Shown here in pieces: positions 16,630 to 60,037 of a stretch of 64,000 nucleotides of DNA (position 1 is its first letter; each line of letters opens with the position of its first letter). The position numbers and the translations under genes were made by a program. Source of the stretch: Stenotrophomonas nitritireducens (GTDB taxonomy: Bacteria; Pseudomonadota; Gammaproteobacteria; Xanthomonadales; Xanthomonadaceae); assembly GCF_001700965.1 (NCBI RefSeq), contig NZ_CP016756.1:434001-498000 (forward strand). Direction: 5' to 3'. The notes under the pieces were generated by a model, which had not been told where the DNA came from, did no database searches, and saw only the letters and a list, made by a program, of their open reading frames with translations.

Positions 16630-16635
16630 AGCAGC

Positions 16636-23323: not shown

Positions 23324-23983
23324 ATGAGCATTAGCCAATATCAGGACCGCGCCGAGCAGCTGTTGACTGCCGCCGGCATCCTGCCGGTAGTTACCGTGCA
23401 CACTCTGGAACAGGCGCGCGCCGTCAGCGCAGCGCTGCTCGAAGGCGGCTTGCCGGCGATAGAGCTGACCCTGCGCACGCCGGTGGCGATGGAAGCGCTG
23501 GCCATGCTCAAGCGCGAACTGCCGGATGTGGTGGTGGGTGCCGGCACCGTGCTGACTGTCGAGCAGATGCAGCGCTCGATCGATGCCGGTGCCGACTTCA
23601 TTGTTACCCCGGGCACGCCGGCGCATATGGCCGATGCCCTGGCTGCCGCACCGTTGCCGGTGGTTCCGGGCGCCGCTTCACCGACCGAACTGCTGGAACT
23701 GGTTGCCCGCGGCTTCCGCATCTGCAAGTTGTTCCCAGCCACCGCCGTTGGCGGCTTGGCGATGATCAAGGGCGTTGCCGGCCCCATCCCGGAGCTCAAG
23801 CTCTGCCCCACCGGCGGCATCACCGAGGCCACCGCAGGCGACTACCTGGCGCAGAAGAACGTGGTCTGCATTGGTGGCTCGTGGATGGTGCAGGACAGCT
23901 GGATCCGCAACGGCCAGTGGGACGAAGTGAAGAAGTCCGCTGCGGCCGCCGCGGCCATCGTCAAGCAGGCCCGCGCCGGCTGA
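23324..23983 (+). CDS. eda: KDPG aldolase (2-dehydro-3-deoxy-phosphogluconate aldolase)
   Basis: Cleaves KDPG to pyruvate and glyceraldehyde 3-phosphate. The 219-residue class I aldolase shows the catalytic Glu in LPAIELTLRTP, the GAGTVLTVEQM loop, the Schiff-base Lys in FRICKLFPATAVGG and PTGGITEATAGDYL. It closes the zwf-glk-pgl-edd-eda operon, with a strong terminator about 350 bases downstream beyond REP elements. Confidence 0.97.
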   Translation: MSISQYQDRAEQLLTAAGILPVVTVHTLEQARAVSAALLEGGLPAIELTLRTPVAMEALAMLKRELPDVVVGAGTVLTVEQMQRSIDAGADFIVTPGTPAHMADALAAAPLPVVPGAASPTELLELVARGFRICKLFPATAVGGLAMIKGVAGPIPELKLCPTGGITEATAGDYLAQKNVVCIGGSWMVQDSWIRNGQWDEVKKSAAAAAAIVKQARAG

Positions 23984-27527: not shown

Positions 27528-27649
27528 CACCAGAATCCTGATTCATCACCGGCAGCAGCTGCCGGATTTTCGCAAAGATCACCGCCATGCGCGGCGGTAT
27601 GTTACGCATGGAAAGCCAGCATCATCGCCACCTTTCGTTTGCTCTGGCC

Positions 27650-30653: not shown

Positions 30654-30663
30654 TGGCCGCGCT

Positions 30664-32304: not shown

Positions 32305-32360
32305 CTTGAAAACATAGCACCACATTCAGGTGGCGAACGCGCAACGCCTATAGGAAACGT

Positions 32361-32388
32361 CCCGGCCGCCTAGCATACGGCGGCCGGG
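32361..32388 (-). terminator. Strong intercistronic hairpin after the TonB receptor gene
   Basis: CCCGGCCGCC and GGCGGCCGGG form a perfect 10-bp stem with an 8-base loop, 11 bases past the receptor stop. Only a weak T stretch (ACGTTTCC) follows on the minus strand, so it may attenuate or stabilise mRNA rather than stop transcription fully. Confidence 0.6.
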
Positions 32389-32398
32389 AGCTTGGTAC

Positions 32399-35359
32399 TT
32401 ACCAATCCAGACCAAATGACAGCTTGAAAGTACGGGTAGCGTACTGATCCCAGCTGCTGACCACGCCGGTGTTCCAATTGATGCCGTAACCGCCCCAGTT
32501 GGTCCAGTTGAAGGCATTGAGCAGGTCGGCGCGGACCTTGAGCTTGAGATCGGTGCCGGTGTCCCAGGTCTTGGTCAACGACATGTCGAACTGCTTGAAG
32601 CCAAGGCTGCCACTCGGCTCCCAGCTGTGCGGACGCTCATAGCCACCGTAGGCGTCGGTGCCGTCGATATCCCAGCGCTTGATCTTGCTGGCCAGGGTCA
32701 GCTTGCCGGACGCGCTCATGCCCCACGGCAGGTCCGTGAAGCCACTGACAACCAGGCGATGCTTCGGCGCCCAGGCGCCATCGAACCAGCCGCCCTGCTG
32801 GAAATACCAGCCGAATACCGGGTCCTTTTCATGGATGTTCTGCTTGGCGTCGGTCAGCGTATAAGCCACGTTGAGGTTCCACGGGCTTTCGGCGGAATAC
32901 GGCTTGTCCAGGCTCAGCAGCAAGGCGGTGTTCCTGGATTCGAAGCCATTGGTGGCAACGATCAGCGCGCCCAGATCTGGCAGGCCTGGCGCACTCCACG
33001 GGCTGCCGTCGGGGCCAAAAACGCCGCCATCGGCATAGCGGTTGCCACGTGAGATCAGCAGACCGTCCTTGTAACGGGTGTGCTGCACGGTGGCCGAACT
33101 GTTCCAGTCCTGCCCGCCCATGTTGAAGCTGCTGCGGATGCCAAGGCTGAACTGGTCGGAATACGGTGTCTTCAGCTTGTTGTCGAACATCCACACTTCG
33201 CGGCCGGCCTCGCTGGAATCGACCAGCGACATCAGGAAGTCGCGGTCAAGCAGCTGCGGGGTCCAGTCCAGGCAGTCGCCGCCCACCGCACAGGCATGGC
33301 CCGGCGAGTTGATCTTGAAACGGCGGGTCGGGAAGGACGCCTTGCTGCGCTCAAGCTGCAGGTAGTCGAACAGGTTGCGGTCGTAGGAACGGCCGACACC
33401 GCCGAACACCACCAGCCGCTCATCGCCACTCAGGTCATAGGAGAAGCCCAGCCGCGGCTGGATCGCGTCCTTGAACGGCTTGCGGTTGTTGCCGGTGCTG
33501 ATATAGCGGTTGATGTCGATGCCGCCCAGCGCCAGCGTCTGCGCATAGGTCTGGCCAGCGCCGGCTTTCGGATCCTGGCTGGCCAGCGAGGCCAGTACGT
33601 CCGGTGCGGTAGCGTAATCCAGATAGGACGGCGTCTTTTCGTAATCCCAGCGCAGGCCCAGGTTCAAGGTCAGGCGGTCGGTGACTTCCCAGTCGTCCTG
33701 GATGTAGATGCCGAACTGCTTGTTCTTGGACGTCACCGCGCCGCCACCGGTGCCCACTGCCGGGCTGCCGAAGCGCACGAAGTACGGCGCGTCGCCGCCC
33801 TGGTTGATGTCGTAATAGAACTGCGGGTTGTAGGGCTGCTGTTCGATCGTGTCCAGGTCCACCTGCTTGTACTTGATGCCGAACTTGAGCGTGTGCCCTT
33901 CCCAGCCGAAGAACGTGGTGTCGTTCTGGAACGACCAGCCCTTCTGGCCCTTGTCCTGCAGGCCACCGTCGCCGGCACCGATGCGGTAGATCTGCTTGCC
34001 GTCGTCGCCACTGCCATCGGTCAGCACACTGCCGTTGCCGTAGTTGACCGGCGCCTTGGTCCAGAACGCCTTCTCGTAGGTGAGGTGCGAATCGCTTAGC
34101 CAGTTGGTGTTGGAGTACTGCCAGCGCAGGTCGTAACGGTCCTCGGTCACGCCGGTATCAGTGCCGTAGCTGCGCGCGCTCTGCCCGCCGACGTTGCCGA
34201 TCTCACTCTCTTCGCGGCGCTTGTAGGTGAACTCAAGCAGGTTGGCATCGTTCACCGACCAATCCAGCTTGCCGAAATACAGGTCTTCCTTGAACGGCGT
34301 TGCAGTGGCGCCGAGCTGGTCGCGCCAGGCCTGCGGCAGGTCGTCGGGGAAGCGCCCTTCGCCCGGTTTCAGGTCCTGCGGCGCGTTGTATTCCTTGCCC
34401 TCGTAGGTGACGAAGAAGTGCGCGCGGTCCTGCACGATCGGGCCGCCAAAACTGCCACCGTATTGCTTCTCACCGGAACGGGTCTTGCCCACGCCGTTCT
34501 TCTCGCTCTCGCGCAGCTCGCGCCAATCCTGGTTGGTGTAATCCCAGAAGAACGAGCCCTTGAACTCATTGGTGCCGGACTTGGTCACCGCGGTCACCGC
34601 GGCCGAGCTGATCTGGTCGTACTCGGCCTTGTAGTTGGAGGTGATGACCTTGTATTCGCCGATGGCCAACTGCGGGAACGGGTTGCCGCGACTGGCATCC
34701 TGGCCGGTGATGCCACCCTGGGTGACGTAGTTTTTCTGGCCCACGCCATCGATGTAGACGTTGACGTTGTTGGCGCTCTGCACGCCACCACGCAGTTTGG
34801 TGGAACCGTTGGACGGGTTCTGCTCGAACACCATGCCGGGCACGGTGTCGGCGAATGCCAGGAAGTTCCGCGTGCCCTGCGGCAGGGCCTGGATCTGCTG
34901 TGGGGTGATGTAGGTGGCAATTTCCGAGGTTTTGGTCTCGATCGGCGCCTGTGCCGTTACCTGCACCGCATCCAGCGTGGTCGCCGAGCCGCCGCCGGTT
35001 TCAGCCACGCCGCCGACGCCCAGGTTGACCGTGGCGGTCTGCCCGACCTGCACGGTGATGTTCTGGCTGCTGCTCTTGCCACCGGCGGTGACGTCCACCT
35101 TGTAGGTGCCCGGCGGCAGACCCGCGAGTGAATAGTTGCCGTTGCCGGTGCTCTGCACGCTGCGGGCCAGGCCGGTGGCGATGTTGGTGGCGGTGATCTG
35201 GGCCTGCGCGGCGGGGGCCGAGTCAGCCATCACCTGGCCACGGATGGTGGCACCGGTGCTCTGTGCGAAAGCGGGCGCGGCGCCCAGCAACAGGCACGCG
35301 GCAAGTGCACCGCTGAGCAGCTTGCGTGGGGGCATCGCGTTGTTCGATTTTTTATTCAT
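32399..35359 (-). CDS. TonB-dependent receptor, Oar-like
   Basis: Outer-membrane active transporter, 986 residues. A signal peptide (GALAACLLLGAAPAFA) precedes a carboxypeptidase-regulatory-like beta domain (ATIRGQVMADSAPAAQAQIT, about 35-120), then the plug (LDAVQVTAQAPIETKTSEIA; YIDGVGQKNY) and a long beta-barrel ending in FKLSFGLDW with the C-terminal aromatic typical of barrel proteins. It lies downstream of the LacI gene and upstream of hydrolase and ABC genes, consistent with a carbohydrate receptor. A strong hairpin follows it. Confidence 0.94.
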   Translation of the reverse strand: MNKKSNNAMPPRKLLSGALAACLLLGAAPAFAQSTGATIRGQVMADSAPAAQAQITATNIATGLARSVQSTGNGNYSLAGLPPGTYKVDVTAGGKSSSQNITVQVGQTATVNLGVGGVAETGGGSATTLDAVQVTAQAPIETKTSEIATYITPQQIQALPQGTRNFLAFADTVPGMVFEQNPSNGSTKLRGGVQSANNVNVYIDGVGQKNYVTQGGITGQDASRGNPFPQLAIGEYKVITSNYKAEYDQISSAAVTAVTKSGTNEFKGSFFWDYTNQDWRELRESEKNGVGKTRSGEKQYGGSFGGPIVQDRAHFFVTYEGKEYNAPQDLKPGEGRFPDDLPQAWRDQLGATATPFKEDLYFGKLDWSVNDANLLEFTYKRREESEIGNVGGQSARSYGTDTGVTEDRYDLRWQYSNTNWLSDSHLTYEKAFWTKAPVNYGNGSVLTDGSGDDGKQIYRIGAGDGGLQDKGQKGWSFQNDTTFFGWEGHTLKFGIKYKQVDLDTIEQQPYNPQFYYDINQGGDAPYFVRFGSPAVGTGGGAVTSKNKQFGIYIQDDWEVTDRLTLNLGLRWDYEKTPSYLDYATAPDVLASLASQDPKAGAGQTYAQTLALGGIDINRYISTGNNRKPFKDAIQPRLGFSYDLSGDERLVVFGGVGRSYDRNLFDYLQLERSKASFPTRRFKINSPGHACAVGGDCLDWTPQLLDRDFLMSLVDSSEAGREVWMFDNKLKTPYSDQFSLGIRSSFNMGGQDWNSSATVQHTRYKDGLLISRGNRYADGGVFGPDGSPWSAPGLPDLGALIVATNGFESRNTALLLSLDKPYSAESPWNLNVAYTLTDAKQNIHEKDPVFGWYFQQGGWFDGAWAPKHRLVVSGFTDLPWGMSASGKLTLASKIKRWDIDGTDAYGGYERPHSWEPSGSLGFKQFDMSLTKTWDTGTDLKLKVRADLLNAFNWTNWGGYGINWNTGVVSSWDQYATRTFKLSFGLDW

Positions 35360-47245: not shown

Positions 47246-47279
47246 CGTACACACCGGGGGAGAAAACCCCGAGTGTACG
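47246..47279 (-). promoter_or_regulatory. Hairpin in the ybdL leader
   Basis: CGTACACACCGGGG and CCCCGAGTGTACG pair nearly perfectly around AGAAAA. On the minus strand the structure ends just before the ybdL ATG and no ribosome site is visible outside it. It may control translation or be an operator; it also lies in the divergent ybdL-ccmA gap. Confidence 0.4.
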
Positions 47280-47410
47280 CAAAGCCGGCATCGCCGGCCC
47301 GCCCTGGCGTGCCCCGGCAGCGCGGGACAGCGTCGGCCCGGCGCTATACTGCGCGCCCCGATGCGCTGCCCAGCCTGCGCCACCTGCCAAGGACGGAAGC
47401 GCCCGATCCG

Positions 47411-48070
47411 ATGATTGAAACTGCAAACATCCCGCCGCTGCTCAGTGCACGTGGCCTGCGCTTCAGCCGCAATGACGATCCGGTATTCGGGCCACTGGAC
47501 CTGCACGTGGACGCAGGCGAGGCCTTGCTGGTGCAAGGGAGCAACGGCGCCGGCAAGACCACCTTGCTGCGCGTGCTGGCCGGCCTGCTGCGCGCGGACG
47601 AAGGCCAGATCGAGATCGACTCGCGCCCGGCAGGCAACACCGACCGCTCGCGCTATATCGCTTACCTGAGCCATCTCACCGCGCTCAAGCAGGACCTGGG
47701 CACACTGGAGAACCTGCACTTTCTGTGCGGGCTGCAGGGCCGGCGGGCGCGGCAGATGCCGGGCAACGCCCTGGCCATCGTCGGCCTGGCCGGTTACGAG
47801 GACACGCTGGTGCGGCAGCTCTCGGCCGGCCAGAAGAAGCGTCTTTCGCTGGCCCGCATCTGGCTGTCGCCGGCGCCGATCTGGCTGCTGGACGAACCCT
47901 ACGCCAACCTCGACCTGGAGGGGATCAACCTGGTCAACCGGATGATTTCAGCGCACCTGCGCAGCGGCGGCGCCGCGGTGGTGACCACGCATGGCGCCTA
48001 TGCCGCACCGCCGGTGCGCAACCGCACGCTCACCTTGCACGCTGCCGGCAGCGAGGAGGACGCCGCATGA
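47411..48070 (+). CDS. ccmA: Haem exporter ATPase CcmA
   Basis: ATPase of the CcmABCD complex that releases holo-CcmE during cytochrome c maturation. The 219 residues show Walker [15 protein letters not shown], signature [14 protein letters not shown], Walker [17 protein letters not shown] and the CcmA-typical THGAYA end. I start at ATG 47411 ([18 protein letters not shown]); the open frame begins earlier without similarity. The stop overlaps ccmB as ATGA. Confidence 0.96.
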
Positions 48071-48762
48071 GCCTGTCCGGTCCGCAGCCCACCCTGCTCT
48101 CGGCCGCACGTGCCTTGCTGGCGCGCGACCTGAAACTGCTGTGGCGCCGCCGTGGCGACGCCGCGCAGCCAATCCTGTTCGCGGTGCTGGTGGTGGCGCT
48201 GTTCGCACTGGCGCTGGGCGGTGAGCCCAGGTTGCTGCAGAGCGTGGCCTCGGCCGTGCTTTGGCTGGCGATCCTGCTGGCCGGCCTGCTGTCGCTGGAC
48301 ACCCTGTTCCGCAGCGATGCCGAGGATGGTTCGCTGGAACAATGGCTGCTGTCACCGGTGCCGCTGGCCTGGCTGGTGGCGGTGCGGGTGTTCTCGCACT
48401 GGCTGACCACCGCCTTCCCGCTGGTGCTGGTCAGCCCGTTGCTGGCCGAACTGATGCATCTGCCGCGTGCACAGCTGCCGGTCCTGGTCACCGCATTGGC
48501 ATTGGGCACGCCCCTGCTGAGCCTGCTCGGCGCGGTGGTTGCCGCCTTGACCGTGGGCATGCGCCGGGCCGGCATCCTGCTGGCATTGCTGGTGCTGCCG
48601 CTGTACGTGCCGGTGCTGGTATTCGGCGCCGGCGCGGTGGCGGCGGCGGCGCAGGGCTTCGATGCCAGCGGCGCCCTGTTGATGCTGGCAGCCGGGCTGC
48701 TGGTCAGCGCGGTGCTTGCGCCTTTGACGGCGGCGGCGGCAATCCGCATCGCCAACTCCTGA
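48067..48762 (+). CDS. ccmB: Haem exporter permease CcmB
   Basis: Inner-membrane subunit of the CcmABCD complex, 231 residues with six helices. The family start [20 protein letters not shown] and the [20 protein letters not shown] motif are clear, as is the P-rich [11 protein letters not shown] segment. In most gammaproteobacteria ccmC follows directly. Here a regulator and four electron-transfer genes intervene and ccmC starts 5.9 kb further on. Confidence 0.96.
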
Positions 48763-48814: not shown

Positions 48815-49495
48815 ATGGCTGAGCGGCCCCACACCGAAGTCCCGAGCGTAGCCAAGCCCACCTTGCCGCCCCGCCCCGTGGTCGAACTGCAGCGGCGCGG
48901 CGAACTGCGGGTTGAGAAATTCCTCGCCGCTGCCACTGACGTCTTCAACGAAAAGGGCTACCAGGCTGCGCGCCTGGCCGACATCGTCAAGCGTGCCGGC
49001 GGCTCGATGGCCACGCTGTACCGTGCCTTCGGCGACAAGGAAGGGCTGATCCACGCCTTGATGGAGCAGAGCATCAATGACTTCGGGCGCAGCTTGGATA
49101 CCCTGCTGCAATCGCCGTTGCCGCCCGCCCAAGCACTGGAAGAAGCCGCCGTGCAGATGGCAGAGGAAATCCTCTCGCCGACTCGACTTGCGTGTCACCG
49201 GGTGGTCATTGCCGAGGGCATGAACCAGCCCGGCCTGCGCGACTGGTTCCAGGCGCACGGTGTAGCGCCAATGGAAATCCTGCTCAGCCACTACTTCACC
49301 CGCGAAACCGCTGCCGGCCGCATGCACATCGAAGACCCCGACCAAGCCGCGCATTTTTTCTACATGGTGGTGATCGGCGGCTTGATCCTGCGCTCGGTCA
49401 ACGGCCGCATCGACAGCAGCGATCTGCCGCGCGCGCAGCAACAGGCACGCGCAGCCGTGCGCCTGTTCATGGCCGGCGCCCTGCCGCGAAGCTGA
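48815..49495 (+). CDS. TetR-family transcriptional regulator
   Basis: A 226-residue regulator whose HTH reads ARLADIVKRAGGSMATLYRAF, followed by GDKEGLIHALMEQS. The C-terminal ligand domain resembles AefR-like TetR proteins (LACHRVVIAEGMNQPGLRDW). A basic, Pro-rich extension of about 28 residues precedes the fold. It lies 52 bases after ccmB and 130 bases before the decaheme gene in the same direction, so it is the obvious candidate to control the electron-conduit genes. A palindrome upstream of that gene could be its operator. Confidence 0.92.
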   Translation: MAERPHTEVPSVAKPTLPPRPVVELQRRGELRVEKFLAAATDVFNEKGYQAARLADIVKRAGGSMATLYRAFGDKEGLIHALMEQSINDFGRSLDTLLQSPLPPAQALEEAAVQMAEEILSPTRLACHRVVIAEGMNQPGLRDWFQAHGVAPMEILLSHYFTRETAAGRMHIEDPDQAAHFFYMVVIGGLILRSVNGRIDSSDLPRAQQQARAAVRLFMAGALPRS

Positions 49496-49551: not shown

Positions 49552-49569
49552 ACGTAATCGACATTACGT
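49552..49569. promoter_or_regulatory. Palindromic operator candidate upstream of the decaheme gene
   Basis: ACGTAAT-CGAC-ATTACGT, a perfect 18-base inverted repeat, 57 bases before the decaheme start. Size and symmetry suit a TetR dimer. Confidence 0.5.
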
Positions 49570-49625: not shown

Positions 49626-50669
49626 GTGCGGTTCTATCTCGCAGTGCTGGCACTGGTCGCAACCGCTGTTCTGGTCTCCGTCGCCTGGCTGGCCCCGGTA
49701 AAAGCCGATGCCAGCGGGCAGGCGGTCAAACTTCCCGAAACCCACTTCGCTTCCACCCAGTCCGGGCACGGATTCGACGCCCCGCCTGGCTTCGCCGATG
49801 CCGTCCCCGCGCGCAACAAGGCCCACCCGCAGGCCAAGGCCGTCGGCCAGCAGGTCTGCACGGCCTGCCACAGCAAGGAAAACGACAACTTCGCACATAC
49901 CGCACACGCCGCCGGCATGCAGGTTGCGTTGGCGGCCAATCCCAATACCGCCACCTGCGAGGCCTGCCACGGGCCGGGTTCCGTACACGCCGCCAACCCG
50001 ACCCAGAAGGGTTCGATCATTGCCTATACCCACGATGGCGGCACGCCGGTGGCAAACCAGACCGAGAGCTGCCTGGGCTGCCATTCCGGCGGCCCACGCG
50101 ATGCCTGGCTGGGCTCGGTGCACCAGCGCAATGATCTGTCGTGCAGCGACTGCCACAACCCGATGGTCAAGTTTTCCGCCGAAGGCCTGACCGCCAAACA
50201 GTCGGTCAGCGAAACCTGCGCCACCTGCCACAAGGACATCCGCCAGCAGTTCAACCGGCGTTCGCACATGCCGCTGCCAGAGGGCGCCATCAGCTGTGTG
50301 GATTGCCACAACCCGCATGGCACGCTCAACCCCACCCTGCTCAAGACCGATACGGTCAACGAGACCTGCTACCAGTGCCACGCCGAAAAACGCGGCCCAT
50401 TCCTGTTCGAGCATGCGCCGGTGCGCGAGAGCTGCCTGAACTGCCATCAGGTACACGGCTCCAACCAGCATGCCCTGCTGGTGGCGCCGATCCCGATGCT
50501 GTGCCAGCAATGCCACTCTCATACCCGCCACCCCAACGACCTGCAGACCGAGTCCTCGCTCGGCAACGGACTGACCGCTGATGAACGCCTGATGGGACGC
50601 GGCTGCATCACCTGCCACGCCCAGGTACACGGCTCCAACCATCCTTCCGGCCCACGTCTGCACAAGTAA
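49626..50669 (+). CDS. Decaheme c-type cytochrome (MtrA/PioA/DmsE family)
   Basis: Periplasmic electron wire expected to sit inside an outer-membrane porin. The 347 residues have an N-terminal signal (MRFYLAVLALVATAVLVSVA) and exactly ten CXXCH haem sites between about residues 78 and 331: CTACH, CEACH, CLGCH, CSDCH, CATCH, CVDCH, CYQCH, CLNCH, CQQCH, CITCH. Spacing and the HGTLNP/HQVHGSN segments match the DmsE/MtrA family. The start is a GTG at 49626 behind a very strong AAAGGAGGGG site. The MtrB/PioB-type gene follows 12 bases later. Maturation needs the surrounding Ccm system. Confidence 0.94.
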   Translation: MRFYLAVLALVATAVLVSVAWLAPVKADASGQAVKLPETHFASTQSGHGFDAPPGFADAVPARNKAHPQAKAVGQQVCTACHSKENDNFAHTAHAAGMQVALAANPNTATCEACHGPGSVHAANPTQKGSIIAYTHDGGTPVANQTESCLGCHSGGPRDAWLGSVHQRNDLSCSDCHNPMVKFSAEGLTAKQSVSETCATCHKDIRQQFNRRSHMPLPEGAISCVDCHNPHGTLNPTLLKTDTVNETCYQCHAEKRGPFLFEHAPVRESCLNCHQVHGSNQHALLVAPIPMLCQQCHSHTRHPNDLQTESSLGNGLTADERLMGRGCITCHAQVHGSNHPSGPRLHK

Positions 50670-50681
50670 AGGGAGAACGGC

Positions 50682-53213
50682 ATGTGCACACGGAATCGTT
50701 CTAGTAACTGCCGCTGCTCATTGTTGTCCCTGACTTTGATTGCCGGCCTTGCACAGGCCCAGGACAGCGGTGGCGGCGTCGACCTGCAGTTCGGCAACTG
50801 GCTGGACCCCAGCGGCCGCATCGGTTGGGATGGCTGTGATCCGGAGGGCAACAGCTGGCTGAGTGCCGAACCCAAGCGCACGCCCACCGGCTTTCTGTAT
50901 GGATGTGCGCCACAGCTGGCCGCTGCCAAACCCGTTGGCGACAACGGCTGGACCTGGTCGGGCAATGTCGCGCTTGGCTACCTGCACCTCAGTGGCGATG
51001 AGCGCAATACCAACTGGCGCCGCTTCCGCGATGCCGACGACGGCGTCGTCCTGCAGGCGAACTTCAGCCTGGCACGCGCCGAGGATGGGCGCTACGTGGA
51101 CGTGCGCATGAGCCACCTGGACCGCGACAACCAGTACCTGCGCGCGGTGTTCGGGCAGGCGGGCCGCTACAAGGTGCAGGCGTTCGCACGCAGCACGCCG
51201 AATGTGCTCAGCGGCAACGCACGTTCAATCTGGGATGGCGTGGGCAGCGCGCACCTGACCCTCAAACCCGGGCTCAGCGCAGCCGGAAGCAGCGCCGCGC
51301 AGGTGGCGGCAATTTCCGCAGTGCAGCCGCTCAGCACTTTGAGCGTGGTGCGCGACAAGGTGGGTGTGAGCATCAACTACCTGCTCAACCCGCGCTGGAC
51401 CGGCTATGCCAGCCTCAGCCACGAAGAACGCAGCGGCGCGCGTCCCTTCGGCGGGCCGTTCTTCTTCAACTATCCGTTCCCGGCCAACGGCGGCGTCTAT
51501 GAGATCCCCCGCCCCATCGATGACAGCACGCTCAACTTCATGGGCGGCATGCGCTTCGTCGGCAATGTCTGGCGTAGCGATTTCAACTACACCGGCTCGT
51601 TCTTCCGCAACGCGCACAGTTCCTATGACTACCAGGTGCCGTACGGTCTGTATTCGGTGGCCGGCGCCTATACGCCGCCGCTGACCCAGGGCTCGTTCGC
51701 CTATGAACCGGAGAACGACTACCACCGCCTCGGTGCCACCTTTGGCCGCAGGCTTCCGGCCTGGAATGGCGATTTCTCGGTGAACCTGGCACTGACCACC
51801 ATGCGCCAGAACGACAAGCTGCTGGCACCAATGGACTGCCAAGGCCAGTTCGGGCAGGCGCTGGCACCGCCCTTCATGTACGACTGTGCCAACTGGAACA
51901 CCACCGATGCACTGTCGCGCAAGCGCGCCGGCCTGGCCATCAACAACCAGAAGGTGGATGCACGGCTGGTGCTGATGCCCAATGACGATGTCACCTGGCG
52001 CAATACCGCACGCTATCTGCGCGAGGACTACAGCGGCAGCTACTGGGCCTACAACCCGCTCACCGACCAGTACGGCTACATCGCCGAGAACGGCGCGCAG
52101 GGCAGCGTGGTGCCTGGCGAAATGGGGGTCTGGGATCGCGGCCCGAACGCCTCGGTGCTCACCCGCATCCGCAACCTGCCGCTGGACAAGGAAACGCGCG
52201 AGGTCTCGACCGGCGCCGACTTCCGCAGCAGCAACAAGAACACCTTGTCGGCCAGCTATACCTATACTGCGATCGAACGCGCCCACCGCGAGGTCGCCAC
52301 CACCCACGACAACCTGCTCAAGTTCGGCTGGAACAACCGCGCCCTGGAGTGGCTGACCTTCCGAGCCAATTATTCCTACCTCGACCGCAGCGGCAGCAGG
52401 TATTACTACGACCCCTACGAGTTCACCTTCTCCAGTTCCCTGCCCGGATTTGTCGAGCCCGCGGGTGGGCTGAGCCCGCATACGGTATCCAACCTGCGCA
52501 AATACGACATCGCCTCGCGCACGCAGCAGAAGCTGGACCTGATGGCCACCTTCATCCTGCCGCATGACATGACCGTCTACACCTCGGTGCGTGGCGACCG
52601 CAACCGCTATGACGCGCAGATTGGCCGGCAACGTTTTGACACCTATGCCGGCAGCGTGCAGTGGGAGTGGCAGCCCAACCCCAACACCACTGCCAGCGCC
52701 TGGTATGGGCTGGACCGCTCCACCCTGGTATTTGCCAACGTCAACGACGCCACCGGCTCGGACCCGGCACTGGGCGGCCCGACCTATCCGGACGCCAATC
52801 GCTGGTGGATGGACGATGCACAGCGCAACCACTACGCCGGTTTGAACTTCACCCGCCGGCTGGGCCGCGCCACCCTGGACCTTGCCTGGAACTGGACCTA
52901 TTCGCGCGGCACGACCAGCTACCGGATGAACTCGCCCGGCGCCCTGACCACGCCGGCCAATGCAGCACTGGCCAGCGGCAGCTATCCGGTGATGGTGTAC
53001 CGGGTCAACTCGGTGACTGCCGGCCTGTCGCTGCCGCTGAACAAGCGCATGCGCCTGCGGCTGTTTGATACCTATGAGCGCGGCAATCTGTCGGACTGGC
53101 ATTACTTCGGCTTCGAGGACACCCTGGTCTATGACCATCGGGTGTATACCGATGGCGGCCCGTCCAGCTACAACGTCAATCTGGTCGGCATGCTGTTCGA
53201 GGTGGCCCTATGA
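50682..53213 (+). CDS. MtrB/PioB-family decaheme-associated outer-membrane porin
   Basis: An 843-residue beta-barrel predicted to sheath the decaheme cytochrome. The signal region MCTRNRSSNCRCSLLSLTLI precedes VDLQFGNWLDPSGRIGWDGC. Long alternating amphipathic strands follow, with family segments such as NYLLNPRWTGYASLSHEERS, RFVGNVWRSDFNYTGSFF and AWNWTYSRGTTSYRMN, and a C-terminal strand SYNVNLVGMLFEVAL. The length is close to PioB (longer than Shewanella MtrB). The N-terminal CXXC found in MtrB of metal reducers is absent from the mature part. ATG 50682 has AAGGGAGAA upstream. It overlaps the c4-like gene by four bases. Confidence 0.92.
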   Translation: MCTRNRSSNCRCSLLSLTLIAGLAQAQDSGGGVDLQFGNWLDPSGRIGWDGCDPEGNSWLSAEPKRTPTGFLYGCAPQLAAAKPVGDNGWTWSGNVALGYLHLSGDERNTNWRRFRDADDGVVLQANFSLARAEDGRYVDVRMSHLDRDNQYLRAVFGQAGRYKVQAFARSTPNVLSGNARSIWDGVGSAHLTLKPGLSAAGSSAAQVAAISAVQPLSTLSVVRDKVGVSINYLLNPRWTGYASLSHEERSGARPFGGPFFFNYPFPANGGVYEIPRPIDDSTLNFMGGMRFVGNVWRSDFNYTGSFFRNAHSSYDYQVPYGLYSVAGAYTPPLTQGSFAYEPENDYHRLGATFGRRLPAWNGDFSVNLALTTMRQNDKLLAPMDCQGQFGQALAPPFMYDCANWNTTDALSRKRAGLAINNQKVDARLVLMPNDDVTWRNTARYLREDYSGSYWAYNPLTDQYGYIAENGAQGSVVPGEMGVWDRGPNASVLTRIRNLPLDKETREVSTGADFRSSNKNTLSASYTYTAIERAHREVATTHDNLLKFGWNNRALEWLTFRANYSYLDRSGSRYYYDPYEFTFSSSLPGFVEPAGGLSPHTVSNLRKYDIASRTQQKLDLMATFILPHDMTVYTSVRGDRNRYDAQIGRQRFDTYAGSVQWEWQPNPNTTASAWYGLDRSTLVFANVNDATGSDPALGGPTYPDANRWWMDDAQRNHYAGLNFTRRLGRATLDLAWNWTYSRGTTSYRMNSPGALTTPANAALASGSYPVMVYRVNSVTAGLSLPLNKRMRLRLFDTYERGNLSDWHYFGFEDTLVYDHRVYTDGGPSSYNVNLVGMLFEVAL

Positions 53214-53968
53214 AGGCGCTCTGGTTGATCGCCGCGCTCGCGGCCAGCCCACAAGCCGATCCGCCGGCAAGTACCGACGCGCCTGCGGCCACGCTTTCCG
53301 CCGAAAGCGCCACAACGCCACAGCCTCCGCCTCGCTACGACCTGCGCAGCGCATACGCCGCAAACGGTGACGCGGCGGCCGGCAAGGGCAAATCCGAGGT
53401 CTGCGCGGCCTGCCATGGCGGCGACGGCATCGCCATCACCCCGGCCTTTCCGAATCTTGCCGGGCAGAAAGCCGCCTATCTGTACTGGGCGCTGCATGCC
53501 TACAAGAGCGGGCGCATGCCCGAGTCACCGATGACCGCGATGGCCGCGCCGCTGGAAGAACAGGACATCCGCGACCTGTCGGCCTACTACGCCGGGCTGC
53601 CGGTGCCGGCACCTGCCGCCGATGCGCCACCCATCGACCTCGACCCGGCCCTGCTCAGCCAGGGCCAGGCCATCTACATGGGCGGTGACACCCCCAAGGG
53701 CATTCCGCCCTGCCAGGGCTGTCACGGCGTCGACGGCCGCGGCAACCCGCAGGCCGGTTTTGTCGACCGTAGCGGGCGCATGCCGTATGCCGCCTACCCG
53801 GCCCTGCGAGGGCAACAGAACGACTACCTGCAGACCCGCCTGCAGCAGTTCCATGATGATGCGGTCGACGCCTCCAGCAACAGCCGGGTCATGCACGGCA
53901 TCGGCCAGCGGCTGGACGCGGACAGCATCAAGGCGGTATCCACCTGGCTTTCATCGCTCAAGCAATAG
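53210..53968 (+). CDS. Diheme cytochrome c4-like protein
   Basis: Periplasmic two-domain class I cytochrome c of 252 residues. A short signal (MKALWLIAALAASPQA) and a Pro/Thr-rich linker of about 35 residues lead to two haem domains with CAACH (about residue 65) and CQGCH (about 168). Met ligands are likely in ESPMTAMAAPL and SNSRVMHGIG. In other systems cytochrome c4 shuttles electrons to cbb3-type oxidase. It is translationally coupled to the porin gene, implying that it receives or supplies electrons of the conduit. Confidence 0.9.
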   Translation: MKALWLIAALAASPQADPPASTDAPAATLSAESATTPQPPPRYDLRSAYAANGDAAAGKGKSEVCAACHGGDGIAITPAFPNLAGQKAAYLYWALHAYKSGRMPESPMTAMAAPLEEQDIRDLSAYYAGLPVPAPAADAPPIDLDPALLSQGQAIYMGGDTPKGIPPCQGCHGVDGRGNPQAGFVDRSGRMPYAAYPALRGQQNDYLQTRLQQFHDDAVDASSNSRVMHGIGQRLDADSIKAVSTWLSSLKQ

Positions 53969-54041
53969 AACCAACCCCACCCGCCACCGCGCGGCGTGTT
54001 CCCGCTGCCCTGTTCAAGAAGTCACCGATAAGGAGTTACCC

Positions 54042-54494
54042 ATGAAGTCCCGTATTTTCCTTGCCCTGCTGCTGATCGGCGGCGCATCTGCCGCGCACGC
54101 CTCCGATACCTGTTCGGTCAGCCTGGAAGGCAACGATGCGATGAAGTTCAATGCCACCAACATCGACGTGCCCAAGAGCTGCACGAACTTCACCATCAAT
54201 CTGAAGCACGCCGGCAAGATGGCCAAGAACGTCATGGGCCACAACGTGGTGGTGGCCAAAACCACGGACATGGCAGGCATCGATAGCGACGGCATGAAGG
54301 CCGGGCTGGCGGCGGACTACATCAAGGCCGGCGACACCCGCGTCATCGCCCACAGCAAGGTGGTCGGTGGCGGCGAATCCACCTCCGTCTCGATCCCGGT
54401 CGCCCGCCTCACCGCTGCAGCCGCCCCGCTGTCGTTCTTCTGCAGCTTCCCCGGCCACGCGACGATGATGAAGGGCACGGTGACCCTCAAGTAA
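54042..54494 (+). CDS. azu: Azurin
   Basis: Periplasmic type I copper protein of 150 residues including signal MKSRIFLALLLIGGASAAHA. All azurin features are present: the disulfide Cys pair (SDTCSV, PKSCTNF), GHNVVV with the first Cu His, and the Cu loop FFCSFPGHATMMKG giving Cys, His and axial Met, ending GTVTLK. ATG 54042 follows AAGGAG. It is the last gene of the electron-transfer block and a likely soluble partner of the c4-like protein; ccmC follows after 139 bases. Confidence 0.97.
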   Translation: MKSRIFLALLLIGGASAAHASDTCSVSLEGNDAMKFNATNIDVPKSCTNFTINLKHAGKMAKNVMGHNVVVAKTTDMAGIDSDGMKAGLAADYIKAGDTRVIAHSKVVGGGESTSVSIPVARLTAAAAPLSFFCSFPGHATMMKGTVTLK

Positions 54495-54633: not shown

Positions 54634-55386
54634 ATGTTCAAAGGTTTAGCAGGTTGGTTTCACAAGCTGGGCTCCCCGCCTTACTTCGATACCTTCGCCG
54701 CCCGTTGGTCCACCTGGTGTTACATCGCCTCCCTGCCCCTGTTCGGCTTCGGCCTGTGGCAGGCATTGGCGGTGGTGCCGGCCGACTACCAGCAGGGCGA
54801 TAGCTTCCGCATTCTTTATATCCACGTGCCGTCGGCATGGATGAGCCTGTTCGTATTCGGGCTGATGGCCTTGTACAGCGCCATCGCGCTGATCTGGCGG
54901 ATCAAGCTGTGCGAAATCCTGGCCATGGCCTGCGCGCCCATCGGCGCCGCATTCACCCTGATCACCCTGCTCACCGGCAGCATCTGGGGCAAGCCCATGT
55001 GGGGCACCTGGTGGGACTGGGACCCGCGCCTGACCACCGAACTGATCCTGCTGTTCATGTACCTGGGGGTGATGGGCCTGTACGCCGCCATCGATGACCG
55101 CCGCGCCGCCGCGCGCGCGGCCGGCCTGTTGGCCCTCGTCGGTGTGGTGATGCTGCCCATCATCCGTTACTCGGTGGTGTGGTGGAACTCGCTGCACCAG
55201 GGCCAGACCATCCGCGTGTTCGGCGAATCCAGCATGGACAGCAGCATGATCCTGCCGCTGTGGATCATGGTGCTGGCCACCAAGTTCTGGTTCGCCGGCT
55301 CGCTGCTGGCGCGTGCGCGCGCCGACAACCTGCGCCGCGAGGTTGGCAAGGCCTGGCTGCGCGAACGGCTGGAGAAATCGGCATGA
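54634..55386 (+). CDS. ccmC: Haem exporter protein CcmC
   Basis: Inner-membrane haem-handling protein that delivers haem to CcmE. The 250 residues have six helices and the tryptophan-rich WGKPMWGTWWDWDPRLTTEL (WWD) motif, plus conserved His in YIHVPSAWMSL and WWNSLHQGQTI. It starts the second ccm run and probably has its own promoter in the 54495-54633 gap. The stop overlaps ccmD as ATGA. Confidence 0.97.
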   Translation: MFKGLAGWFHKLGSPPYFDTFAARWSTWCYIASLPLFGFGLWQALAVVPADYQQGDSFRILYIHVPSAWMSLFVFGLMALYSAIALIWRIKLCEILAMACAPIGAAFTLITLLTGSIWGKPMWGTWWDWDPRLTTELILLFMYLGVMGLYAAIDDRRAAARAAGLLALVGVVMLPIIRYSVVWWNSLHQGQTIRVFGESSMDSSMILPLWIMVLATKFWFAGSLLARARADNLRREVGKAWLRERLEKSA

Positions 55387-55556
55387 GCTATTTCAAATAT
55401 GTGGCGCTGGCCTACGCGGTGTTCTTCATTGTGCTGGCCTGGGATTTCATCGTGCCGCGCCTGCAGATCCGCCAGCAACTGCGCGAGGCCCGTGCGCGTC
55501 TCAGCCGCGCCAAGCGTGCCAGCGCTGCGGCCGTTGACGAGGAACTGAGCCGATGA
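55383..55556 (+). CDS. ccmD: Haem exporter protein CcmD
   Basis: A 57-residue single-span membrane protein: [20 protein letters not shown] followed by a positively charged helix ([17 protein letters not shown]). This is the standard CcmD layout, which stabilises the CcmABC-CcmE complex. It overlaps both ccmC and ccmE by four bases. Confidence 0.93.
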
Positions 55557-56020
55557 GCCCGACCCAACGCCGCCGCCTGCTATGGGTATTGCTGGTGGTG
55601 CTGGTGGCCGGTGCCGCCGTCGCTCTTGTCAGCACTGCCCTGCAACGCAATATCGCCTATCTGTACACCCCGGCCGAGGTCAAAGCCGGCAAGGTTACGC
55701 CCGACGCCCGTTTCCGGCTCGGCGGCATGGTGGCCAAAGGCTCGTTCAAGCGCGAACCCGGCGCCCTGCTGGCACGTTTCGAAGTCACCGATGGCGATGC
55801 GTTGCTGCCGGTAACCTACGACCGCATCCTGCCGGACCTTTTCCGCGAAGGCCAGGCCGTGGTCGCCACCGGGCGCATGGCCAACGGCGTGTTCGTTGCC
55901 GAGGATGTGCTGGCCAAGCACGACGAGACCTATATGCCCAAGGAGCTGGCCGACAAGATGGGCGTGGCGCACGACAAGCATCAGGTCCCGACCGCCACCC
56001 CAACCACGGGAACGCCCTGA
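55553..56020 (+). CDS. ccmE: Periplasmic haem chaperone CcmE
   Basis: Binds haem covalently through His and passes it to CcmF/H. The 155 residues include an N-terminal anchor ([20 protein letters not shown]), an OB-fold ([36 protein letters not shown]) and the haem-binding His in [11 protein letters not shown], with the conserved Tyr four residues later. ccmF starts directly after the stop. Confidence 0.97.
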
Positions 56021-57955
56021 GTGCTTGGTGAAATCGGACAGGTATTACTGATACTCGCGCTGCTGGCGGCCCTGCTGCAAAGCGTCCTGCCTCTGATCGG
56101 CGCCCAACGCGGCATTCCCGCACTCACCGCGATAGCACGGCCGGCAGCGATGCTGCAACTGACCATGGTGCTGGCCGCCTTCGTGGTGTTGACCATCGCT
56201 TTCGTGCGCCAGGATTTCTCGCTGCGCTACGTGGCCGACAATTCCAACTCGCTGCTGCCGATGATTTACCGCTACTCGGCGGTATGGGGCGCGCACGAAG
56301 GCTCGCTGCTGATGTGGTCGCTGGTGCTGGCGCTGTGGACCGCCGCCGTTGCCGAGTTCTCACGGCAGCTGCCGTCGGAAGTGGTGGCGCGGGTACTGGC
56401 GGTAATGGGCATGATCAGTGTGGGCTTCCTCGCCTTCCTGCTGTTCACCTCCAACCCGTTTGCACGCCTGCTGCCGGCGCCGTCTGAAGGCCACGACCTC
56501 AACCCGCTGCTGCAGGACCCGGGGCTGATCATCCATCCACCGCTGCTGTATCTGGGCTACGTCGGCTTCGCGGTGCCGTTCGCCTTCGCCATTGCCGCGT
56601 TGATCGATGGCCGCATCGACGTGCGCTGGCTGCGCTGGACCCGGCCATGGACCAACGCGGCATGGGGCTTTTTGACCATCGGCATCGCCCTGGGCAGCTG
56701 GTGGGCCTATTACGAGCTGGGCTGGGGTGGCTGGTGGTTCTGGGACCCGGTGGAGAACGCCAGCTTCATGCCATGGCTGGTAGGCGCAGCCCTGCTTCAT
56801 TCGCAGGCGGCCACTGAAAAACGCGGCGTGTTTGTCGGCTGGACCTTGTTGCTGGCCATCGCCGCGTTCGCGTTGTCGCTGCTGGGCACCTTTCTGGTGC
56901 GCTCGGGCGTGCTGACCAGCGTGCATTCGTTTGCCGCCGATCCGTCGCGCGGCCTGTTCATCCTGATTTTCCTGGGCGTCGTCGTCGGCGGCTCGCTGCT
57001 GCTGTATGCGCTGCGCGCGCCCGGCATTGGCGGCAACAGTGCCGATCCGCGCCGCGCCTTCGCCCTCAACTCGCGCGAAAGCCTGCTGCTGGTCAACAAC
57101 CTGCTGCTCAGCTGCGCCTGTGCCATGGTGCTGCTGGGCACCTTGTATCCGCTGCTGGCCGACGCGCTCGACCTGGGCAAGGTATCGGTGGGGCCGCCGT
57201 ATTTCGGCACGCTGTTCCTGGTGTTGATGGCGCCGATGATCGTCTTGCTGCCATTCGGCCCGCTGAGCCGTTGGCAGCGCGAACAAGGCCTGCGCACGCT
57301 GGCATTGCTCGCCCCCTGGGCCGGGCTGGCGGTGCTGCTGGGCATCATCGGCTGGTGGATGGCGCCGCAGGGCAAGTTCAAGACCGCCGTCGGCATCGCC
57401 GGTGCGGCATGGGTGGCCGGTGGTACCGGCTATTACCTGTGGACCCGGCTGCGCAAGGGCGGCCGCCTCAATGCCGAGACCTGGGGCATGCTGATCGCGC
57501 ACTTCGGCGTTGCCGTGTTCCTGGTCGGCGCGTTGCTGGTGGAAGCGCTGCATGTGCAGCACGAAGTCGCCCTGGCGCCCGGCAAGACCGTCGATGCCGG
57601 CGGCTATACGCTGCTGTTCGAGGGCGTGGACGCGACCGACGGGCCCAATTACCACTCCGACCGTGGCCACCTGCAGGTGCTGCGCGGCGATACCTTGATC
57701 ACCCGCCTGCACCCGGAAAAACGCATGTACGCCAGTGGCGGCCAGCCGATGACCGAAGCCGGCATCCACCCCGCCCTGGGTGGCGATATCTACGTAGCAC
57801 TGGGAGAATCACTGGGCGACGGCTCGTGGGCCGTGCGCGTACAGATCAAACCTTTTGTCCGCTGGATCTGGCTGGGCGCGGCGCTGATGGCGCTGGGCGG
57901 TTTCATCACCGCCGTCGACCGCCGTTTCCGTCGGCTGCCTGAGAAATCGAAATGA
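56021..57955 (+). CDS. ccmF: Haem lyase subunit CcmF
   Basis: Large membrane protein of 644 residues that attaches haem to apocytochromes together with CcmH/I. Motifs: WGAHEGSLLMWSLVLALWTA, DLNPLLQDPGLIIHPPLLYL, the WWD segment GWGGWWFWDPVENASFMPWL and HSFAADPSRG. About 14 helices are visible. The start is a GTG immediately after the ccmE stop. It is coupled to ccmG by a four-base overlap. Confidence 0.97.
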   Translation: MLGEIGQVLLILALLAALLQSVLPLIGAQRGIPALTAIARPAAMLQLTMVLAAFVVLTIAFVRQDFSLRYVADNSNSLLPMIYRYSAVWGAHEGSLLMWSLVLALWTAAVAEFSRQLPSEVVARVLAVMGMISVGFLAFLLFTSNPFARLLPAPSEGHDLNPLLQDPGLIIHPPLLYLGYVGFAVPFAFAIAALIDGRIDVRWLRWTRPWTNAAWGFLTIGIALGSWWAYYELGWGGWWFWDPVENASFMPWLVGAALLHSQAATEKRGVFVGWTLLLAIAAFALSLLGTFLVRSGVLTSVHSFAADPSRGLFILIFLGVVVGGSLLLYALRAPGIGGNSADPRRAFALNSRESLLLVNNLLLSCACAMVLLGTLYPLLADALDLGKVSVGPPYFGTLFLVLMAPMIVLLPFGPLSRWQREQGLRTLALLAPWAGLAVLLGIIGWWMAPQGKFKTAVGIAGAAWVAGGTGYYLWTRLRKGGRLNAETWGMLIAHFGVAVFLVGALLVEALHVQHEVALAPGKTVDAGGYTLLFEGVDATDGPNYHSDRGHLQVLRGDTLITRLHPEKRMYASGGQPMTEAGIHPALGGDIYVALGESLGDGSWAVRVQIKPFVRWIWLGAALMALGGFITAVDRRFRRLPEKSK

Positions 57956-58572
57956 ATAGTCCCTCACCCAACTCCTCCCATCGGTTGCCGCCGGTCGCCA
58001 TCGTCCTTGGCGTGCTGTTCTTCCTCGGCCTGATGGGCTTGATGCTGTACGGCGTCAGCCGCTCCGGCCAACCGGACCGCGACAGCCTGCCCTCGGCCCT
58101 GCTCAACAAGCCGGCACCGGCGTTTTCATTGCCGGTGCTGCACGACCCCAGCGTGCACGTCACCGACAAACAACTGCGCGGCGCGCCCTATCTGCTCAAT
58201 GTCTGGGGCAGCTGGTGCCCGACCTGCCGCGATGAACACCCCATCCTGACCCGCTTTGCCGAAACCAAGCGCGTGCGCGTGATCGGCTACAACTGGAAGG
58301 ACGAGCCCAGCGAAGCGCTGCGCTGGCTTGAGCAGCTGGGCAACCCGTACATGGTGGTACTGGCCGACCAGGATGGCCGCACCGCACTGGACTGGGGCAT
58401 CGCCGCCGCGCCGGAAACCTTCCTGGTCGACGGCAGCGGCATCGTGCGCTGGAAGTACAGCGGCGCCATCACCCAGGAAGTCATGGACCAGCAGCTGATT
58501 CCGGCATTGGAAAAAGTCGAAGCGGCAGCGGGCGGGTCGCGCGGCGCACCCGACTTTGGAGCCACCCGATGA
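57952..58572 (+). CDS. dsbE: Thiol:disulfide interchange protein DsbE (CcmG)
   Basis: Membrane-anchored thioredoxin-like protein that reduces the CXXCH Cys of apocytochromes. The 206 residues have an N-terminal anchor (VAIVLGVLFFLGLMGLMLYG) and the active site WGSWCPTCRDEHP, followed by GVAAAPETF-type cis-Pro region (GIAAAPETFLVDGSG). Its C-terminal tail of about 20 residues is longer than usual. It overlaps ccmF and ccmH. Confidence 0.96.
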   Translation: MNSPSPNSSHRLPPVAIVLGVLFFLGLMGLMLYGVSRSGQPDRDSLPSALLNKPAPAFSLPVLHDPSVHVTDKQLRGAPYLLNVWGSWCPTCRDEHPILTRFAETKRVRVIGYNWKDEPSEALRWLEQLGNPYMVVLADQDGRTALDWGIAAAPETFLVDGSGIVRWKYSGAITQEVMDQQLIPALEKVEAAAGGSRGAPDFGATR

Positions 58573-59021
58573 AAGCCTGGGCTGGCATGTTGCTGTGGCT
58601 GTGCTTGGCGTTCACCGCCAGCGCACAACCGGCCGGCGACCCCAGCCCGCTGCATTACCGCGACCGCGCCGAGGAAGTGCGTTTCCACGCACTGACCGCG
58701 GAGCTGCGTTGCGTGCAATGCCAGAACCAGTCGTTGGCCGATTCCAACGCGCAGATCGCCCACGACCTGCGCCGCGAAGTACTCAAACTGATGCAGGAAG
58801 GCCGCACAGACGCACAGATCAAACAGTTCCTCGTCGAGCGTTACGGCGAGTTCGTGTTGTACCGCCCGCAGCTGGAAGCCAGCACAGCGCTGCTCTGGTT
58901 CGGGCCTGGCCTGCTGTTGCTGGCCGGCGCGGTGTTGCTGGTCCTGCATGTACGCCGCCGGGGCCGCGCGGTGCCTGTTGCCACCAATGACGACACCAGC
59001 CAGGAAGAACGCGAATGGTGA
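58569..59021 (+). CDS. ccmH: Cytochrome c maturation protein CcmH
   Basis: Thioreductive subunit of the haem lyase, 150 residues. It has a signal peptide (AGMLLWLCLAFTASA), the redox motif LRCVQCQNQSLADSNAQIA and DLRREVLKLMQEGRTDAQIK, and a C-terminal membrane helix (ALLWFGPGLLLLAGAVLLVL). Only the N-terminal half of the E. coli CcmH is encoded; the TPR half is the separate CcmI. Confidence 0.96.
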   Translation: MKAWAGMLLWLCLAFTASAQPAGDPSPLHYRDRAEEVRFHALTAELRCVQCQNQSLADSNAQIAHDLRREVLKLMQEGRTDAQIKQFLVERYGEFVLYRPQLEASTALLWFGPGLLLLAGAVLLVLHVRRRGRAVPVATNDDTSQEEREW

Positions 59022-60037
59022 ATGCTGGATTCCTGGCAGGTGCAGGACTGCTGGCCGTGCTTGCAACCGGCATCACCCTGTGGCCGCTGTGGCGCGCCGG
59101 CAAGCGGCGCGTCTGGGGAAGTCTGGTCGCCATGGCGCTGGTCGCCACGCTGGGCCTGTACCAGTGGCTGGGCACACCGGCGGCGCTGCAGGCACATGCC
59201 GAGGCCGCTGCTGCACCGCAGACCATCGAAGAAGGCATCGCCCAACTGCAGGCCGCATTGGAACAGAACCCCGAGCGTGTGGATGGCTGGGTGTTGCTGG
59301 CCCGCTCGCAGCTGGAGATCGGCAAGGTTGCCGATGCCGCCGCGTCCTACCAACGCGCCGCGCAGCTGGCCCCGGATGAACCGATGCTGCTGATCGAGGC
59401 CGCACAGACCCGCGCGCAGGCCAATCCCGCCTTCCTGTTCGACGTCACCGCACAGCAGTGGCTGGTCCACGCGCGACAGATAGCGCCGGATAACGAGCGC
59501 GCCATCTGGCTGACCGGCATCGTGCAACGCCAGCAAGGCCAGAACGAACTGGCCGCGCAGACCTGGGAAAGCCTGCTGTCACGGCTGGAACCCGCTGCCG
59601 CCAGCGCACTGCAGGAACAGATCGACATCGCCCGAGGCAAGACCCCGAGCACCGCCCATGCCACCGCCGCGGCAAGCACGCCTGCCAGTGGCGGCGGCAA
59701 TAGCATCACCGTAACCGTAAGCCTGGCGCCGGCATTGGCCGCGCGCGCGGCCTCCGGTAAGGAAACCCTGTTCGTCATCGCCCGCATCCCCGGCGGTCCG
59801 CCGATGCCGGTGGCGGTCGAACGCCACCCGGCGCAAAGCGCGCCGCTGACGGTTACCTTGGATGATGCCGACAGCCCGATGCCGACGCAGAAGCTGTCGG
59901 CCCTGCAGGAGGTGGAAGTATTCGCCCGCCTGTCCGCCAGCGGCACCGCGATGCGCGGCGAAGGCGACGTCGAGTCGGCACCGGTCAAGGTCAAGCTGCC
60001 TGCCGATAAGCCCATGACGATCACGCTGGGTCAATAA
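59015..60037 (+). CDS. ccmI: Cytochrome c maturation TPR protein CcmI
   Basis: Apocytochrome-binding subunit of the haem lyase. The 340 residues show two N-terminal helices (about 5-22 and 33-50), a tetratricopeptide region (TIEEGIAQLQAALEQNPERV, DGWVLLARSQLEIGKVADAA) and a C-terminal beta domain (SITVTVSLAPALAARAASGK through MTITLGQ). It overlaps ccmH by seven bases and ends the ccm operon. REP elements follow. Confidence 0.94.
   Translation: MVNAGFLAGAGLLAVLATGITLWPLWRAGKRRVWGSLVAMALVATLGLYQWLGTPAALQAHAEAAAAPQTIEEGIAQLQAALEQNPERVDGWVLLARSQLEIGKVADAAASYQRAAQLAPDEPMLLIEAAQTRAQANPAFLFDVTAQQWLVHARQIAPDNERAIWLTGIVQRQQGQNELAAQTWESLLSRLEPAAASALQEQIDIARGKTPSTAHATAAASTPASGGGNSITVTVSLAPALAARAASGKETLFVIARIPGGPPMPVAVERHPAQSAPLTVTLDDADSPMPTQKLSALQEVEVFARLSASGTAMRGEGDVESAPVKVKLPADKPMTITLGQ

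Follow-up and report, generated by a model that had tools for sequence, protein, structure and literature searches.

An MtrAB/PioAB-type conduit locus with cytochrome c4 and azurin as gene neighbours in Stenotrophomonas nitritireducens

What might a heterotrophic Stenotrophomonas do with genes that resemble an outer-membrane electron conduit, and in which direction would electrons pass through it? This question is raised by a 64,000-nucleotide stretch of contig NZ_CP016756.1 of Stenotrophomonas nitritireducens (hereafter the window). An earlier note, made from the sequence alone, had proposed that the window encodes a trans-outer-membrane conduit of the MtrAB/PioAB type with cytochrome c4 and azurin as partners. 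Profile searches, a structural model and gene order support a conduit of this type with c4 and azurin as its gene neighbours.

Gene content of the locus

Profile and motif searches place a conduit unit of four genes, mtrA, mtrB, c4 and azurin, at window positions 49626-54494. Their locations are those given in the earlier note, and motifs and profiles agree on them. The upstream TetR gene and a probable operator also belong to the unit, judging from the sequence. As summarized in Table 1, the stretch from tetR to azurin interrupts a ccm operon, with ccmA and ccmB on its 5' side and ccmC and ccmE-I on its 3' side, a setting of which the earlier note says nothing.

Table 1. Features of the conduit locus and the surrounding ccm operon, in window coordinates.
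Feature	Position	Strand	Basis and remarks
ccmA	47273..48070	+	PF00005; named from its position beside ccmB; open frame, true start further in
ccmB	47725..48762	+	TIGR01190, PF03379; open frame, CcmB domain from residue 129
TetR-family regulator, AefR-like C-terminal domain	48815..49495	+	PF00440, PF14246
Perfect palindrome ACGTAAT-CGAC-ATTACGT	49552..49569	.	Between tetR and mtrA; probable TetR operator
mtrA, periplasmic decaheme cytochrome, DmsE/MtrA family	49626..50669	+	Ten CXXCH, TIGR03508, 6r2q_A; GTG start at 49626, stop at 50669
mtrB, MtrB/PioB-family outer-membrane barrel	50682..53213	+	PF11854, AlphaFold2 model, Foldseek match 6r2q_B
Dihaem cytochrome c4	53210..53968	+	Two CXXCH; PDB c4 structures 6q2u, 1etp, 1h1o
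Azurin, conduit clade	54042..54494	+	TIGR02695, conserved ligand residues, tree; reading frame opens at 53622, gene start at 54042
ccmC, ccmE, ccmF, ccmG, ccmH, ccmI	54634..60037	+	Profile matches; c-type cytochrome maturation

Against TIGR03508 (cut-off 192), the 347-residue mtrA product reaches 256 bits; among PDB entries, a chain belonging to the Mtr complex matches it best (6r2q_A, E 6.7e-57). The motif count and both matches agree with the MtrA-type cytochrome of ten CXXCH motifs that had been proposed. An alignment of 16 MtrA sequences shows no variation in the ten motifs or in 11 additional histidines; because these histidines suffice in number, bis-histidine ligation of every haem would be feasible. 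The first CXXCH lies at residue 78, and the protein has no long N-terminal extension of the PioA type. Structure prediction of the apo protein reached a mean pLDDT of only 37.6. The sequence library gives the molecule name of 6r2q_A as 'Cystathionine beta-synthase', which is evidently a label error.

The 843-residue mtrB product scores 295 bits against PF11854 (cut-off 23) and 234 bits against TIGR03509, just below the cut-off of 240.05. Its AlphaFold2 model, derived from a 62-row alignment with a mean pLDDT of 84, contains 26 strands of at least ten residues, as counted from the listing. The top Foldseek match to this model is Shewanella MtrB (6r2q_B), with an E-value of 5e-41 and a TM score of 0.88 by target, compared with TM scores of 0.48 or below for the other 49 barrels listed. 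On account of the long strands and this TM score, the barrel is predicted to have the size of MtrB. The earlier note had raised the prospect of a barrel too small for the cytochrome, which the model speaks against, and its reading of an MtrB/PioB-type barrel is confirmed by PF11854 and the modelled fold.

The c4 gene overlaps mtrB by 4 bp and is for this reason considered coupled to it. Both domains of its product are covered by the solved c4 structures listed in Table 1, including 1h1o, which we take to be the Cyc1 protein of Acidithiobacillus. Met108 and Met228 are invariant in 15 sequences and are placed suitably for axial ligands. The overlap, the two haem motifs and the structure matches uphold the proposal of a coupled, c4-like dihaem protein. 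In a related S. nitritireducens (L004:10529-11284), the c4 is about 50% identical to the window c4 while MtrA is 93% identical, and the c4 dN/dS is 0.56; the c4 of this relative has possibly been replaced.

The fourth gene encodes a 150-residue protein that reaches 177 bits with TIGR02695, whose cut-off is 105, and also matches azurin structures. Five residues are invariant in seven azurin sequences (Gly66, His67, Cys134, His139, Met143); these are the type-1 copper ligands of azurin. The profile, the structures and the ligand residues leave the original identification of this gene in place.

Comparison with three Stenotrophomonas relatives indicates purifying selection on all four genes, with dN/dS of 0.07-0.14 for mtrA, 0.18-0.26 for mtrB, 0.26-0.56 for c4 and 0.28-0.33 for azurin. 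Chance is excluded as an explanation of the four-gene unit by this selection, by the profile scores and by the conserved order of mtrA, mtrB and c4 among relatives.

The sequence also suggests how the unit is regulated. The core of the palindrome before mtrA has a single match in the 64 kb, where 0.01 would be expected. The form CGTAA(T/C)-N4-ATTACG precedes mtrA in seven loci, four from Stenotrophomonas and three from Luteimonas (L002, L003, L004, L012, L009, L010, L013), and weaker versions are found in four others (L060, L061, L063, L066). With up to three mismatches, no palindrome was found in L005, L008 or L065, and the copy in L064 does not stand before mtrA. The TetR protein is a probable repressor of the conduit unit and the palindrome its probable operator, through which expression of the conduit would be controlled.

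Elsewhere in the window, Pfam matches identify an Entner-Doudoroff operon at 17937-23983, with genes for glucose-6-phosphate dehydrogenase, glucokinase, a 6-phosphogluconolactonase-type protein, an Edd-type protein and KDPG aldolase. The minus strand at 24372-35359 encodes a TonB-type receptor, a glucoamylase-family protein, a solute-binding protein, two permeases and an F5/8C-domain protein, and is likely a glycan-uptake locus.

Distribution and gene order among relatives

The porin profile PF11854 was matched above its cut-off in 34 of 297 genomes of the family. These comprise 17 genomes of the clade to which the window locus belongs, 11 of a distant lineage and six with weak or partial matches, which were excluded from the counts (G084, G110, G135, G174, G267, G284). 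In the genus, the only full-length match among 17 sampled genomes is that of the host genome itself, and a survey of the order found the locus in two of at least 22. At the level of the order, the profile finds a match in 71 of 398 genomes, and 45 of these belong to a single other family. The locus had been called unexpected in this genus; its rarity there holds, while the number of matches in the order shows that it is no one-off. Named strains with the locus include S. terrae DSM 18941, whose MtrB shares 96% identity with that of the window, and S. nitritireducens DSM 12575.

The distant MtrAB lineage has full-length matches in 11 of the 297 family genomes (L017-L027, L070). No c4 match was found in its short flanks (11/11) or in four longer stretches. 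One genome, G004, was excluded from the clade; its nearest MtrA is only 36% identical and is followed by no c4 match. In this genome, one distant-lineage copy is followed by open frames with one and nine CXXCH motifs.

The order mtrA-mtrB-c4 is constant in the three sets of related loci (15/15, 17/17 and 24/24), among which some records overlap (L116 is apparently L014, and L112 apparently L012). The gene in fourth position varies, and may be an azurin, a HiPIP of the PioC kind or neither. In the 15-locus set, a TetR gene precedes mtrA in 11 loci and azurin is present in eight; a HiPIP follows c4 in place of azurin in L014 and L016 (PF01355, 86 and 77 bits). Among the 24 new loci, which come from the best-scoring matches in the order, six have a HiPIP, two an azurin and 16 neither within the 1.5 kb or less examined; these HiPIPs were called by tblastn with two Pfam-confirmed HiPIPs as queries. 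The earlier note had contrasted the locus with PioC systems. No HiPIP is present at the locus, which has azurin instead, but the contrast is softer than claimed because several relatives carry a HiPIP in that very position.

Placement within the ccm region is common, not universal, among related loci. Nine of the 15 loci lie inside the ccm operon and two adjoin part of it (L015, L009), while L010, L011, L013 and L016 have no ccm gene in the stretches examined. In addition, ccm genes are touched by four of 11 further clade stretches and five of the 24 short-flank loci of the order. Such a position would tie the conduit to the apparatus for attaching its twelve c-type haems.

These surroundings raise the possibility that azurin is a neighbour from the ccm region and that the working unit is mtrA-mtrB-c4. 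Azurin is set off from c4 by a 73-bp gap with its own Shine-Dalgarno sequence (by eye), and it is not found, as c4 is, after mtrB in every clade locus examined. In two Stenotrophomonas genomes without a PF11854 match, a conduit-type azurin stands alone between ccmB and ccmC, without mtrAB-c4 (L099 of G221, 7200-9788; L100 of G233, 8642-11222). Such sites would be explained by loss of tetR-mtrA-mtrB-c4 or by an azurin site that is older than the conduit, and the persistence of azurin without the conduit counts against tight coupling of the two. The azurin tree (40 rows) argues the other way. One branch with support of 97/97 unites 20 rows, namely 17 of the 19 conduit-adjacent azurins, those of G144 and G070, and one from G221, the only copy from the two ccm sites in the tree. 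Azurin of this type adjoins the conduit in 12 of 17 clade genomes, and two more (G144, G070) hold it about 400 kb away; of the exceptions, a different azurin type lies nearby in G088, only other types occur in G151, and G184 has no azurin. Four of the 12 adjacent cases (G185, G133, G289, G057) have no ccm gene in the 12-18 kb examined. Likewise, the host genome keeps a separate azurin (C1:1264723), which falls far off in the tree among azurins of conduit-less genomes. Overall, we consider it rather unlikely that azurin is a bystander.

The MtrA tree (38 rows) clusters the azurin label, with two changes and none of 500 shuffles as low, a result to which near-copies contribute. The root of this tree lies on a long branch and its deep forks are weak; it does not fix the number of exchanges between azurin and HiPIP. 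Two loci have further genes close by. In L060 (G249), at 4810-10952, two azurins of different clades flank the conduit, before tetR and after c4. In L061 (G185), frames resembling the Rieske protein and cytochrome b of bc1 (by eye) lie on the opposite strand at 14979-16949, about 3 kb from the conduit azurin.

Electron sources, sinks and direction of flow

The host genome, a single contig of 4.54 Mb, was searched for components that could act at either end of the conduit. The MtrC profile (TIGR03507) had no match in this genome, and none of 80 genomes had one over the cut-off, which agrees with the claim that a surface MtrC is missing. Six weak matches, all below the cut-off, were rejected as surface partners; they are read as MtrA itself because the richest frame there is a protein with ten CXXCH motifs. 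The host genome has no quinol dehydrogenase of the NapC/CymA type, no NirS and no cytochrome c peroxidase, so the last was rejected as a partner of azurin or c4. No NirK exceeds the cut-off of 296, the two weak matches scoring 45 and 37 bits. Three haem-copper oxidases were found, one CtaD with CtaC (aa3, oxidizing cytochrome c) and two CyoB (quinol). Because NirS and an above-threshold NirK are missing, the aa3 oxidase, whose genes lie away from the conduit locus, is the only sink for cytochrome c found. The suggestion that the carriers feed an oxidase or denitrification enzymes is compatible with the aa3 oxidase found here and fails for denitrification, which was rejected as a sink in this genome.

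While direction is not readable from sequence, we infer that electron uptake is the better supported. MtrB, modelled as a 26-strand barrel, would by homology sheathe the decaheme MtrA across the outer membrane. Because no surface cytochrome of the MtrC type was found, electrons from an outside donor would enter MtrA directly at the mouth of the barrel, and donors that are soluble or act by contact, for example Fe(II), reduced humics or an electrode, may be favoured. In the periplasm, cytochrome c4 would accept electrons from MtrA. Gene order suggests azurin as a second or branch carrier, at the position held by a PioC-type HiPIP in some relatives. Both carriers would deliver to the aa3 oxidase, where O2 would be reduced. 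We regard the complete route, by which electrons imported from an outside donor pass through MtrAB, c4/azurin and aa3 to O2, as evenly poised between right and wrong.

The same proteins could instead export electrons, with quinol as the source, bc1 and c4 as the path to MtrA, and an outside oxidant of high potential (H2O2, Mn(III/IV), chromate or iodate) as the acceptor. Shewanella MtrAB does export electrons. Against this reading, c4 and azurin are carriers of high-potential kinds, at about +0.2 to +0.35 V, and at neutral pH such potentials are too high for the reduction of Fe(III) oxides. Since both carriers are of these kinds and the usual quinol dehydrogenase and surface cytochrome are missing, export is less favoured and we consider it distinctly unlikely. 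The available sections of PMC10734462 describe MtrAB as working in both directions. According to the part of PMC8805035 that was available, MtrA is fed in Shewanella export by a quinol dehydrogenase of the CymA/NapC type, and in several groups the dihaem protein PdsA acts alongside mtrCAB as a carrier in the periplasm; the window c4 matches the PdsA profile weakly (43 bits, cut-off 330).

Two other readings concern the partner enzyme. Some holders of the conduit (S. nitritireducens, Luteimonas mephitis) are presumably N2O producers, and in this lineage the conduit might feed denitrification through NirK or NirS, as in nitrite-dependent Fe(II) oxidation. NirK over the cut-off occurs in 11 of 17 conduit-clade genomes, 17 of 52 conduit-less genomes and one of 11 with the distant conduit; the first two fractions differ with a Fisher p of 0.025, a weak association that is uncorrected for relatedness and draws on a hand-picked comparison set. 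However, six of the 17 clade genomes have no NirK over the cut-off, nor does the host genome have a denitrification sink, and this reading is improbable. The NCBIfam name of the cytochrome family, DmsE, would fit a DmsEF-like module serving an extracellular enzyme of the DMSO-reductase type, which the earlier note had held out as a competing explanation if encoded elsewhere. The sole molybdopterin enzyme matched by PF00384 in the genome is NuoG; the module is contradicted by genome content and was rejected, its probability being close to nil.

Comparison with known conduits

MtrAB itself, uptake conduits and dihaem carriers with MtrAB are already known, the last from PdsA (available part of PMC8805035). 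Among the matches listed from a search of the open-access literature, we did not meet MtrAB in Stenotrophomonas, MtrAB with azurin, alternation of azurin and HiPIP after a fixed c4, or placement in the ccm region. The main texts of PMC4245776, PMC6295460, PMC8805035 and PMC5566968 contain neither Stenotrophomonas nor azurin. If uptake is confirmed, soil and water heterotrophs for which this search found no described conduit would be able to draw on outside electrons with O2 as the sink. The periplasmic end of MtrAB conduits would then be swappable, with a c4 core followed by azurin or HiPIP, and the loci would form a natural series for testing what determines the direction and speed of electron flow. 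Near relatives without the conduit provide natural controls for strains that carry the locus.

The MtrCAB systems with PdsA and CymA (Vibrio, Aeromonas and Shewanella groups), like the window locus, combine MtrA and MtrB with a dihaem carrier in the periplasm, but neither MtrC nor CymA was found here and azurin is present. The MtoAB-CymA/ImoA-MtoD system of Sideroxydans is similar in having MtrAB homologues without MtrC and in its proposed role in electron uptake. It differs in that the host genome studied here has no NapC/CymA and that dihaem c4 and azurin replace the monohaem MtoD/PmcA. In the accessible portion of PMC13390432, a terminal oxidase is proposed as the recipient of electrons from MtoD. 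This protein, encoded in the mto cluster, nevertheless showed no interaction with MtoA, so inferring partners from gene order calls for caution.

PioABC of Rhodopseudomonas palustris TIE-1 likewise combines a decaheme cytochrome with an MtrB/PioB barrel, has no surface cytochrome and ends in a gene for a small carrier, which in some relatives of the window locus is a HiPIP as well. The window unit differs in adding a dihaem c4 and in having azurin replace the HiPIP. Photosynthesis, unlike in the PioABC host, is not expected in this organism. PioA carries an extended N-terminus (available parts of PMC6831781 and PMC10654088), which the window MtrA does not share. In R. palustris, according to the extracts available of PMC10304953, a second HiPIP was unable to replace PioC, and loss of PioC was only partly harmful, so another carrier at its position is conceivable.

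The relay itself is closest in outline to the rus pathway of Acidithiobacillus ferrooxidans, which also joins an outer-membrane cytochrome-porin, a c4, a blue copper protein and an aa3 oxidase. Here, in contrast, MtrAB takes the place of the fused Cyc2, the copper protein is azurin and not rusticyanin, and the oxidase is encoded elsewhere in the genome. Acidophily, a trait of the rus-pathway host, is not expected either. In the section of PMC10654088 available, Cyc1 (a c4) and rusticyanin link outer-membrane Cyc2 to aa3. We tentatively suggest, as something short of an even prospect, that the locus represents a third, modular class of aerobic uptake system. Such a class would join MtrAB to aa3 through a rus-like relay, in which c4 is accompanied by azurin and HiPIP as interchangeable carriers, would lie in or near ccm in heterotrophic Xanthomonadaceae, would be common in a neighbouring family, and would provide supplementary energy from outside donors at neutral pH. 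The best reading of the locus, by analogy, is that of a Pio-like outer part joined to a relay resembling the rus pathway of acidophiles.
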